In this document: in pieces, positions 19,802 to 30,538 of the stretch
Numbering within the stretch: position 1 is the first letter of the stretch
How the letters are laid out: every line of letters starts with the position of its first letter
Source of the DNA: Engelhardtia mirabilis
GTDB taxonomy: Bacteria > Planctomycetota > UBA1135 > GCA-002686595
Length of the DNA: 64,000 nt
Assembly: GCA_007751255.1 (NCBI GenBank)
Contig: CP036296.1
Coordinates: forward strand, 6,076,001-6,140,000
Direction of reading: 5' to 3'
Translations under genes and position numbers: made by a program
Notes under the pieces: model-generated
Databases searched by the model: none
The model's input: only the letters and a program-made list of their open reading frames with translations
What the model was told of the DNA's origin: nothing

Positions 19802-20485
19802 ATGCAACACAAGTCCTTCATGCCCGACTTTTCCAACGAAGATCTCCTGCCCCGAATGATCGAGAAGATCCATGAGATCGACCAGGAGGCTTTCGCGCTG
19901 CTCTGGGACAAGCTCGAAGCAGATCTGATGCGAATGGCCAACAGCAAGATCCGCCGCAACGGCGCGGGCAACGTGACCTACAGCGCGACGAGGTTGTTCC
20001 AGGATTCCTTGTTCGCCTTGCTCGGCGCCCACCTGCCGCTGGTCAAGAAGCTCGAACGCTGCGGGCTCACCATCGACCAGATCTTGCCCACCGACGGCGT
20101 CGAGGCCCAGGATCTCGACCGAGAGCAGTTCCTGGCCCTGCTCAGTGCACTCAGCGAGTTCATGCGTGATCTCCTGAAAGCTCGCGCAGACCAGCGCAAG
20201 AGGATCAAGCGCGGCGGCACGATTCATACCGAGCGGATCGAGTTCGCTCTCGATCGCCCCGTCGAGGCATCTCTGGAGGATCCGGAGGTGCTGAGTTCGA
20301 TCCAGGAGGTGCTCGAGACCGTCGCCAAGCTGGCCGATCCGCGGCACATCGAGATCTTCCAGCTGCACTACTTCGCCGGCATGCCCCTTGCCGACCTGGC
20401 CACCCTGTATGAGCTCGACGAGAGGACGATCCGTCGCGACATCAAGGCCGTGAAGGATGCCCTACAGCAACAGTTGGAAGCCTGA
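19802..20485 (+). CDS. ECF sigma factor heading the DGR locus (227 aa)
   Basis: ATG 19802 is chosen because it opens the conserved body; the longer upstream frame is unlikely to be coding. The protein resembles the planctomycete ECF-like sigma subfamily. There is a helical N-terminal region, a divergent region 2 (RLFQDSLFALLGAH, ALSEFMRDLLKARADQRKR), and region 4 with a helix-turn-helix (DPRHIEIFQLHYFAGMPLAD, then LYELDERTIRRDIKAVK). It ends 45 bp before the kinase-NACHT-FGE gene in the same direction, which suggests co-transcription. The same sigma-kinase pairing occurs at 10291-13988. It may supply the transcriptional output of the sensor kinase; that link is inferred. Confidence 0.85.
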   Translation: MQHKSFMPDFSNEDLLPRMIEKIHEIDQEAFALLWDKLEADLMRMANSKIRRNGAGNVTYSATRLFQDSLFALLGAHLPLVKKLERCGLTIDQILPTDGVEAQDLDREQFLALLSALSEFMRDLLKARADQRKRIKRGGTIHTERIEFALDRPVEASLEDPEVLSSIQEVLETVAKLADPRHIEIFQLHYFAGMPLADLATLYELDERTIRRDIKAVKDALQQQLEA

Positions 20486-20530
20486 GGCCTTCCACTTGCA
20501 ACGCCCGAAGACCCTCCTCCTACCTCAGCC

Positions 20531-29800: not shown

Positions 29801-30538
29801 TGTCCCAGCCGAGAGGGCCGACCCGAGATCGAACAGCTTCCAATCCCCCGCGTAGTTCTGTCCGATGTTCGCCGGCTTGAGGTCGAGATGGCACAACTGG
29901 TCCGGGGAACGGTGGAGGCCTTGGACTGCTTCGACCACCTCAACCAGCGCGGTGAGTCGCTGCTCGAGGCTCCACCCTTCCTCATCGAGGCGATCGGCGA
30001 GCTTCGCACGTAGACGTTCGACCAGCAGCGCGAAGTACTCCTTGCCTCGCACGACGAGATTGAGCGAGGTCTTGACCTCGGCCACTCCAGCCGCGACTCG
30101 ACCTTCGTGCGCCTCGGCAATCGAGATCTCGCGGGGCAAAGAGCGCAGGGGTTCGATCAGCTTCAAAACCCAGGCGGGATGGACGCCGATGACGGTGCCT
30201 TGCCCGCCGCGACCCAACACCTGTCGGAGGCGGTACGTGCCATTACTCGGGGCCATCGCCTGGCCGTTGGCCGCCACCGACCGCAGGGCCGCGTCGAGTG
30301 CTTCGATCGATGCGCGGCCCCGCTGCGGATCCCAAGCGGGTCGGTGGGCGGACTCCATGCGGTCGAACCACTGGGCCGGATCGATCCGACTCGGCTTGGT
30401 ATCGCCGGCCACCAAATGCTCGAGCACGAGGTCGGGCTGGTGCTTGTGAATCCAGCCGAGCACGTCGAGGAGCCCGGGCGCGCTCAGCGCGCGCCCGGGC
30501 TCCTCGGCGTCACCTTCTTGGTCCGTCCCCTTCGTCAT
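26846..30538 (-). CDS. DGR target 2: kinase-NACHT-FGE sensor protein (1230 aa)
   Basis: This has the same architecture as target 1 but is highly diverged outside the tail. The kinase (about 100-360) has LGRGGQGTV, HLDLKPAN (about 217-224) and FDLG. The NACHT has Walker A GDPGMGKTT (about 483-491) and Walker B LLVLLDGLDE (about 566-575). A helical region leads to a full FGE-sulfatase domain (from about 1005): IPGGTFTMGDPDG, PVTNADYALFLEATG, LPTEAEWEYACRAG, FGLHDVHGNVFEW and RGGSFAN. The last 45 residues are VR2. There is no signal peptide or membrane helix. It converges on the DGR operon, with its stop 381 bp from the TR. No sigma factor gene precedes it. ATG 30536-30538 has only a weak ribosome site. 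Confidence 0.92.
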   Translation of the reverse strand: MTKGTDQEGDAEEPGRALSAPGLLDVLGWIHKHQPDLVLEHLVAGDTKPSRIDPAQWFDRMESAHRPAWDPQRGRASIEALDAALRSVAANGQAMAPSNGTYRLRQVLGRGGQGTVIGVHPAWVLKLIEPLRSLPREISIAEAHEGRVAAGVAEVKTSLNLVVRGKEYFALLVERLRAKLADRLDEEGWSLEQRLTALVEVVEAVQGLHRSPDQLCHLDLKPANIGQNYAGDWKLFDLGSALSAGTGEEKLHRSAGFSAPEQEIDGAIVDPRMDVFSLGAIAYWILTRRSFWPGGDDRYFEWLQGSHAQRLGEFGAECRRAFPNVTTALVDSFESIVRRAASLDSGGRYPTARDMLDDVKHARELFRTLSRTEQHQVQGRLAPSETDSIRGYRRSAQAKYAQLRLLGIPRANELTVRPALEDFYVPLTARPDVEALVERGVRGAAMGRKLATSAVEGGEAFDLVTLFRRAAERGGRRGALLLGDPGMGKTTHLLHLLLWLLGDNDPTDLGLPSDVLPVFVPLKDCAHTTQGLSDLLEVTFATELPADRFPQMPAGLGAELARRGNLLVLLDGLDEVRDPVQRQAVGRWITGLAEDNATCRFVATCRVAGFTDELRRESQLETQFFVASLTPLSDERRERFVRNWYRVAALDRGLPEDTFAGEADDLVATVGPTASDRSARIAELTRTPLLLAALCVVHTLEQDLPNRRAELYGACVEALLHEWQGAKGLEVGFEPGVARRILARIAHWMHSAQGRDRISRAELIEALESGALVLPDGTAGPDPRATLGAFLDRVVDESGLLVGWSQDRIGFAHLAFQEYLTSFDLRVEFVEQRSFAVPERGTLAPLAGRAGDPWWQEVLLCFASPLARPWAETCQTDDLFERLFGAIVESPLVPTGVTRSTADQRRTVRDARRQWLDLAIADRGGCPAEPLLGLLERAAGADEDLWLRQLSALQLMRAHHRDRLDARLLARLAEHPLAEIARLTSDRPTSDATHRSTRPALQGGYELVPIPGGTFTMGDPDGHGDEQPNHPVNVSPFLLGRFPVTNADYALFLEATGHREPDSWGDREFNSPQQPVVGVSWDDAQEYCAWAGLRLPTEAEWEYACRAGTTTSYWSGSDEPDLARVGWYDANSGGRTQAVGQLPANAFGLHDVHGNVFEWVEDSWSSNYSDSQVAHREGRPFVDDGSGYRVMRGGSFANTAGYARCGYRFRGPRSVRFRYFGFRAAQDITA
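26858..26986 (-). repeat. DGR variable repeat VR2
   Basis: In the sense of target gene 2 this aligns gap-free to the TR, inverted. Over 124 columns (26981 down to 26858) there are 15 differences, all at TR adenines, including AAC to TTC, CGC and TAC. None of the 99 non-adenine positions differ. Identity to TR ends at 26857, where TR has G and VR2 has A. It is the second substrate of the same RT and TR. Confidence 0.97.

Follow-up and report, generated by a model that had tools for sequence, protein, structure and literature searches.

A diversity-generating retroelement of Engelhardtia mirabilis with two kinase–NACHT–FGE targets and an adjacent ECF43-like sigma factor gene

If a bacterial receptor carries a tip that is rewritten by a retroelement, to what does it pass its signal? 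This question is raised by a diversity-generating retroelement (DGR) in Engelhardtia mirabilis, located at positions 19802-30538 of a 64-kb stretch (genome positions 6076001-6140000, hereafter the window) of the 6.95-Mb genome. The plus strand carries genes for a sigma factor of the extracytoplasmic function (ECF) type, the target protein T1, an HRDC protein, an Avd protein and a reverse transcriptase (RT), followed by the template repeat (TR), while the minus strand encodes a second target, T2. The locus would, in our reading, serve to diversify two intracellular receptors through its DGR, with the T1 kinase acting most likely on the adjacent ECF43-like sigma factor; we judge the chances of this combined reading to be about even. 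Its receptor part taken alone is held with fair confidence, and its sigma factor arm is given about one chance in three.

The retroelement and its two targets

The component features are as follows (window positions; VR, variable repeat).

19802..20485, plus strand: ECF-type sigma factor, 227 aa from the ATG at 19802; PF07638 4.5e-15; TIGR02999 57.5 bits (cut-off 126)
19988-19990, plus strand: codon of sigma factor Thr63, within SATR, which replaces the acidic sigma2.2 motif (motif alignment)
20531..24157, plus strand: T1, 1208 aa; Pfam kinase at aa 100-278, NACHT at 432-634, FGE/C-lectin-type tail at 971-1204
24016..24140, plus strand: VR1 core, at the 3' end of T1
24307..24843, plus strand: HRDC-domain accessory protein, 178 aa; Pfam HRDC 9.8e-22
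24840..25265, plus strand: Avd-like accessory protein, 141 aa; Pfam bAvd 5.6e-12, 46.5 bits versus a cut-off of 40
25262..26305, plus strand: DGR reverse transcriptase, 347 aa; Pfam RVT_1 7e-14; IGNLTSQ at residue 185, YMDD at 217
26335..26459, plus strand: TR core; homology to the VRs stops in a common GC-rich 3' stretch
26863..26987, minus strand: VR2 core, at the 3' end of T2
26846..30538, minus strand: T2, 1230 aa; Pfam kinase at aa 106-298, NACHT at 480-646, FGE tail at 1006-1225

The sigma factor gene is separated from T1 by 45 bp, T1 from the HRDC gene by 149 bp and the RT gene from the TR core by 29 bp, while the HRDC and Avd genes, and likewise the Avd and RT genes, overlap by a few bases. 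All of the parts named in a preliminary description of this locus, i.e., an RT with IGNLTSQ and YMDD, an Avd-like protein, an HRDC accessory protein, one TR and two VRs, were recovered by Pfam, motif and TR/VR alignment analysis, and the locus is on this basis a complete, apparently intact DGR. The Avd-like protein exceeds its Pfam cut-off and scores below that of the NCBIfam model DivGenRetAVD (2e-19, 69.8 bits; cut-off 80), while the best NCBIfam match of the RT, a group II model, lies far under its cut-off. The RT exhibits 52-58% identity to seven relatives, and an Avd, HRDC or FGE match was found near 79 of the 80 named RT relatives described below.

The differences between TR and VRs are adenine-specific, as 30 of the 31 TR-to-VR mismatches fall at TR adenines, which make up 23 of the 125 aligned bases (P about 2e-21). 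VR1 differs from TR at 16 positions (15 of them adenines) and VR2 at 15 (all adenines), the sole non-adenine mismatch being a C>A change in VR1 at the final base of the alignment. Thirteen of the 23 adenines are altered in both VRs and six in neither, and a comparison of the two VRs shows 13 differing positions out of 125, i.e., 12 TR adenines and one C. TR, VR1 and VR2 end in the same GC-rich stretch, beyond which the VRs are closer to each other than to TR. The codons appear suited to randomisation: 22 of the 23 TR adenines occupy codon position 1 or 2, none of the 15 adenine-containing TR codons can be converted to a stop codon, and a computed total of about 1.8e13 DNA variants is possible per VR, which represents about the last 47 codons of each receptor and lies in a C-terminal C-type-lectin-like domain.

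It is quite improbable that the DGR is a recent relic, its parts still looking intact after diversification had ended. Such a view may draw on the facts that the data come from one genome, the sole sampled member of the genus, and that the one C>A difference lies at the 3' edge of VR1; it is countered by the open reading frames (ORFs) of all DGR genes, the retained RT motifs, the 12 adenine positions that distinguish VR1 from VR2 and the stop-proof codons. A remote candidate VR at genome position 1895882 (locus L012) was rejected for this TR, as only 3 of its 23 mismatches are at adenines. No match to known RNA families was found at 14000-36000 or 23900-27100, and hairpins 3' of the VRs and TR have folding energies no better than those of shuffled sequences (z -0.84, 0.04 and -0.72). 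A hairpin with a 12-bp stem is present at 26558-26585, ~100 nt past TR, and the whole stretch folds no better than shuffles.

Both targets contain Pkinase, NACHT and FGE-sulfatase domains, all above the Pfam cut-offs and in the order kinase–NACHT–FGE, and the VRs lie at their 3' ends, in agreement with the earlier view that the VRs end giant proteins of this architecture. Since T1 and T2 are only 26% identical (over T1 residues 40-844), one DGR serves two diverged paralogues. In both, the kinase domain retains a Lys-like motif, HLDLKPEN or HLDLKPAN, and DLG, and the NACHT Walker motifs are also present. T1 and T2 are probably cytosolic, as previously proposed, judging from highest 19-residue hydropathy means of 1.61 and 1.37, respectively, which do not amount to a full membrane prediction.

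The T2 tail as modelled (mean pLDDT 83.7, pTM 0.85) is closest in structure to PvdO and formylglycine-generating enzymes (FGE), with 2y3c, a variable protein of Treponema, ranking 34th (TMq 0.73). In alignments with human FGE chains, the positions of Cys336 and Cys341 are occupied in T2 by Asn and Ala, and T1 (GGSFANPAGHARC) carries the same two letters at these catalytic positions. Enzymatic activity of the tails was rejected on this ground, and because the fold is kept while both catalytic cysteines are gone, the tails look like binding tips; by inference from sequence and model, they are putative tips in which the fold is retained without the chemistry.

The sigma factor and its possible link to the kinase

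In ECF43 sigma factors the acidic DxxD motif is replaced (consensus QTTA), and activation has been described as phosphorylation, by an adjacent Hanks kinase, of the threonine within the replaced motif (PMC13147305, PMC8999054). The sigma2.2 stretch of the present sigma factor reads TYSATRLFQD (sister sigma factors have, e.g., TLQPTALVHE), and in the alignment its SATR falls opposite the QxTA motif of the kinase-activated ECF43 sigma factors, placing Thr63 at the phosphosite position. The four-residue motif is devoid of acidic residues, the threonine is third, and the Hanks kinase gene (T1) starts 45 bp downstream. The same features are found in the ECF43 pairs EcfP/PknT and EcfK/PknS, in which DxxD is replaced, a threonine occupies the same place and the Hanks kinase gene is adjacent (PMC8999054, PMC13147305). 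PknS spans the membrane and has a periplasmic region, and the extracytoplasmic domains of ECF43-linked kinases are varied (PMC8999054, PMC13147305), whereas the T1 kinase is joined to a NACHT domain and a hypervariable tip and appears cytosolic. The sigma ORF has two possible starts, ATG 19802 or 19688, and its PF07638 match spans aa 151-264 of the longer form only.

The placement of kinases across the genome is consistent with such a pairing. Of the 43 kinase matches other than T1, 18 are located within 3 kb of a PF07638 match, as against ~4% expected at random places (P 4e-14). Among the best 30 PF07638 loci of the genome, 16 have a QxTx-like motif, and a same-strand kinase is found just downstream in 11 of these 16 (10 of 15 if the present locus is excluded; 1.5 kb visible). 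Nine sigma matches were found in other genomes, seven of which have a kinase match in the surrounding ~3.3 kb; one of the seven is only partial, lying at the edge of its locus, and in two the sigma factor is on the opposite strand.

Several observations weigh against a sigma-directed output. The threonine need not be essential, as the T51A variant of EcfK from X. citri is still functional (PMC13147305). The present sigma factor is a divergent, below-cut-off match to TIGR02999, and its matches among 392 sampled genomes are confined to nine genomes, its own included, mainly over the C-terminal half and at 29-39% identity. A kinase is located downstream in four or five of the 14 motif-less PF07638 loci (Fisher P 0.07 or 0.14), and because motif-less loci also have downstream kinases, kinase adjacency is not clearly tied to the threonine motif. 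A strict glycine-loop pattern gave no match in T1. T2 has no sigma factor of its own, and in the kinase tree the T1 and T2 kinases are sisters (100/92) on long branches outside the main sigma-linked clade. They join the kinase of locus L100 (99/72), a PF07638-like locus without the motif whose kinase is on the other strand; the long branches make this join uncertain, and descent of the T1 kinase from sigma-linked kinases is not supported by the tree.

The sigma factor is likewise scarce at related DGRs. Relatives were collected in two sets: an RT query at 1e-20 returned 69 places in 46 of the 392 sampled genomes of the phylum, own genome included, of which the present locus and 47 others were annotated (two of the 47 being the own-genome loci L058 and L059) and 21 left out; the 80 named RT loci are the best 80 of 537 confirmed stretches. 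At least eight loci are common to both sets. Their domains were tabulated with local hidden Markov models (HMMs) built from a few proteins of this window and the loci, such that weak domains may be missed, and many contigs of the relatives end near the RT, such that targets can be missing. The search for recurrence of the full gene set suggested in the preliminary description came out negative: the sigma factor is absent from all 80 named and from 46 of the 47 planctomycete RT loci. At the exception, L061, two sigma–kinase pairs lie within about 10 kb of the DGR, and their kinases lack an FGE tail and are not VR targets. A sigma factor beside a VR target was thus seen at none of the other sampled RT loci, and a role as a conserved DGR component was rejected. 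The upstream regions of the sigma factor gene and T2 yielded four shared pairs in a search for a common ECF-type promoter, a number equalled by 67 of 200 shuffles.

These results bear on a competing view, which we regard as possible though somewhat doubtful, namely that T1 and T2 are DGR-diversified kinase–NACHT immune receptors whose kinases target other proteins (e.g., to stop growth), the sigma factor being an operon regulator or a bystander. The lack of a sigma factor next to VR targets elsewhere and the sister relationship of the T1 kinase to that of the sigma-less T2 fit this view, as do the best PADLOC matches of both targets, i.e., PD-T4-6 kinase models (6.6e-22 and 9.2e-18), while the 45 bp spacing and the Thr63 motif agree rather with the sigma–kinase pairing seen across the genome. 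Of the sigma-dependent output suggested earlier, the ECF43-like phosphosite position and the genome-wide placement of kinases near such sigma factors speak in its favor, and the kinase tree and the lack of a conserved sigma partner do not; kinase-to-sigma signalling at this locus is a plausible hypothesis.

Related loci and published systems

The E. mirabilis genome contains two other DGRs, which between them have five FGE-tailed targets; together with T1 and T2, this gives seven diversified targets. In the five VRs of these two DGRs, 69 of the 78 TR-to-VR mismatches are at adenines.

Genome 1252000-1271900: DGR L058, three targets, one kinase–FGE and two NACHT–FGE; adenine mismatches 12/16, 14/14 and 18/18
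Genome 3622000-3641900: DGR L059, two trypsin–NACHT–FGE targets; adenine mismatches 10/11 and 15/19

The 47 planctomycete loci encode 20 NACHT–FGE and 11 kinase–FGE ORFs and the 80 named loci 14 and 9, with the ORFs L060/L190 and L063/L199 counted twice; among the 80 named loci, 71 have an HRDC match and 64 an Avd match, the corresponding numbers for the 47 being 20 and 36. By these counts, a target–HRDC–Avd–RT–TR cassette occurs commonly in different phyla, and what sets the present locus apart is the triple fusion and the sigma factor. With the local HMMs, a kinase, NACHT and FGE domain in one chain was found in none of the 52 other distinct two-domain FGE ORFs at the sampled RT loci, and when Pfam was run on 16 of the 23 such ORFs from the named loci, none had both kinase and NACHT, their front ends being TIR, DUF4062, metallophosphatase, ParA-like and TPR. 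More broadly, the domains preceding NACHT in related DGR targets are TIR, trypsin, metallophosphatase, DUF4062 and ParA-like. One metagenome-assembled genome, Co_bin.47, has two DGRs (L207 and L210) that comprise four and three FGE-tailed targets, respectively, distributed over both strands, including TIR–kinase–FGE and TIR–NACHT–FGE proteins.

Close T1 orthologues were found in none of 153 other genomes of the class at E<=1e-25, where the best few candidates per genome were scored. A T2 kinase–NACHT query at 1e-15 matched 20 of the 392 genomes, own included, with 28 matches outside T2, each essentially over the NACHT or the kinase part and none over both; the loci of these matches, with about 1.5 kb of flank, contained no other kinase–NACHT–FGE ORF by local HMM. 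The 80 RT relatives retained from viral contigs exhibit 32-46% identity and are accompanied, by local HMM, by ten FGE ORFs, with no kinase or NACHT; no viral relatives of T2 were found.

Parts of this architecture are established in the literature: DGRs with NACHT and C-type lectin (CLec) domains, often with two targets, have been proposed as bacterial adaptive immunity (PMC10907252), NTPase–FGS proteins occur with DGRs (PMC8195603), FGS occurs with DGRs in ternary systems (PMC7159879), and kinase–CLec DGR targets are known from cyanobacteria (PMC7517822). The closest counterparts are the clade 5D STAND/NACHT–CLec receptors of multicellular bacteria (Doré et al. 2024, PMC10907252), which commonly have two targets per DGR, a single C-terminal CLec/FGE domain with the VR, a central NACHT or nSTAND domain, in some an N-terminal effector, and several DGRs per genome; two targets, a single CLec and a central NACHT are found here too. 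The effectors named there are peptidase and TIR, as opposed to the kinase here, and the term ‘sigma factor’ does not occur in the accessible text, while the domain key of its Fig. 2 lists Pkinase among DGR target domains, such that the figure may include a kinase–NACHT–CLec target. The NTPase–FGS systems (Kaur et al. 2021, PMC8195603), proposed as hypermutated immune receptors, share the FGE-fold domain on NTPases, the RT and a four-helix accessory protein, and differ in that ECF sigma genes go with EACC2–caspase neighbourhoods and not with DGR receptors. The cyanobacterial targets (Vallota-Eastman et al. 2020, PMC7517822) likewise have an N-terminal Hanks kinase and a VR in a C-terminal CLec domain; the terms NACHT, sigma and transcription factor are absent from the text of that paper. 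The main text of PMC8144416 mentions neither kinase, NACHT nor sigma factor. Papers that deal with both DGRs and ECF sigma factors were, in a search for the pair, PMC8195603, whose sigma factor is part of a different system, and PMC12632263.

DGR-diversified NACHT–FGE receptors and kinase–lectin receptors are thus already described, and the earlier statement that such parts were known separately and in some combined forms holds as to NACHT–FGE with DGRs and falls short in that these are more fully in print than it allowed (PMC10907252, PMC8195603). New here are kinase, NACHT and FGE in one chain, together with a sigma factor gene 45 bp upstream. Among the entries listed, no title or abstract on this combination was found in a literature search that had supplements, figures and most subscription journals outside its range.

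The cyanobacterial proteins also lend themselves to a reading in which the receptors serve environmental or kin sensing and not defence, the DGR tuning signalling, which we consider rather unlikely. Such a role has been proposed for DGR kinase–CLec proteins (PMC7517822), and ECF43 examples respond to antibiotic or amoebae (PMC8999054, PMC13147305); the NACHT–FGE architecture and the swapping of front ends resemble, however, anti-phage STAND systems (PMC10907252), and a methylase of the Eco57I restriction-modification type adjoins the locus. This methylase (1.4e-14; 16615-19464, minus strand) is the divergent neighbour of the sigma factor gene.

On the other side, two minus-strand ORFs at 30624-32586 lie upstream of T2, 85 bp from it, and are possibly co-transcribed with it; one (384 aa) has no Pfam match and the other (285 aa) a sub-cut-off DNA_alkylation match. 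A kinase–FGE protein (10902-13988, minus strand; Pkinase 8.8e-43, FGE 1.2e-12) is encoded ~6 kb left of the DGR, with no TR match inside it in a search of the whole genome. Further features of the window are a near-perfect palindrome at 14050-14206, whose 78-nt arms are 99% complementary and 1 nt apart, with adjoining 17-nt tandem units, and two M12-type metallopeptidases, at 32665-35133 (minus strand) and at 41235-43466 (plus strand), the latter also with a C-type lectin domain.

Proposed mechanism and its implications

In the reading preferred here, i.e., diversified intracellular receptors with a T1 kinase directed at the sigma factor, the RT/Avd complex would reverse-transcribe TR RNA, introducing errors at adenines, and the resulting cDNA would replace VR1 or VR2 to yield new tips. 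Binding of an invader or other ligand by a tip may then cause the NACHT domain to switch or assemble, a change that would activate the N-terminal Hanks kinase, which is placed where related receptors carry TIR, protease or other domains. The first protein to be phosphorylated by T1 would most likely be the ECF43-like sigma factor, whose gene lies 45 bp upstream; a phosphate on Thr63 would provide the negative charge that the motif lacks and elicit a transcriptional response, possibly including this operon. The full chain, i.e., a hypermutable receptor that signals by transcription, from randomised tip via NACHT-gated kinase and co-encoded sigma factor to a regulon, is advanced only tentatively and is rather unlikely to hold in every step.

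For the proposed DGR-diversified NACHT receptors, no measured output was found in the literature examined. At the present locus the kinase is the output domain, and a candidate substrate for it is encoded by the neighbouring gene, such that a recognition event could be followed through the phosphorylation state of one specified residue and through promoter activity; whether a randomised tip switches a receptor on would then become directly testable. If the full chain is true, the regulon would perhaps include the receptor and the DGR machinery, in which case recognition would feed back on diversification.
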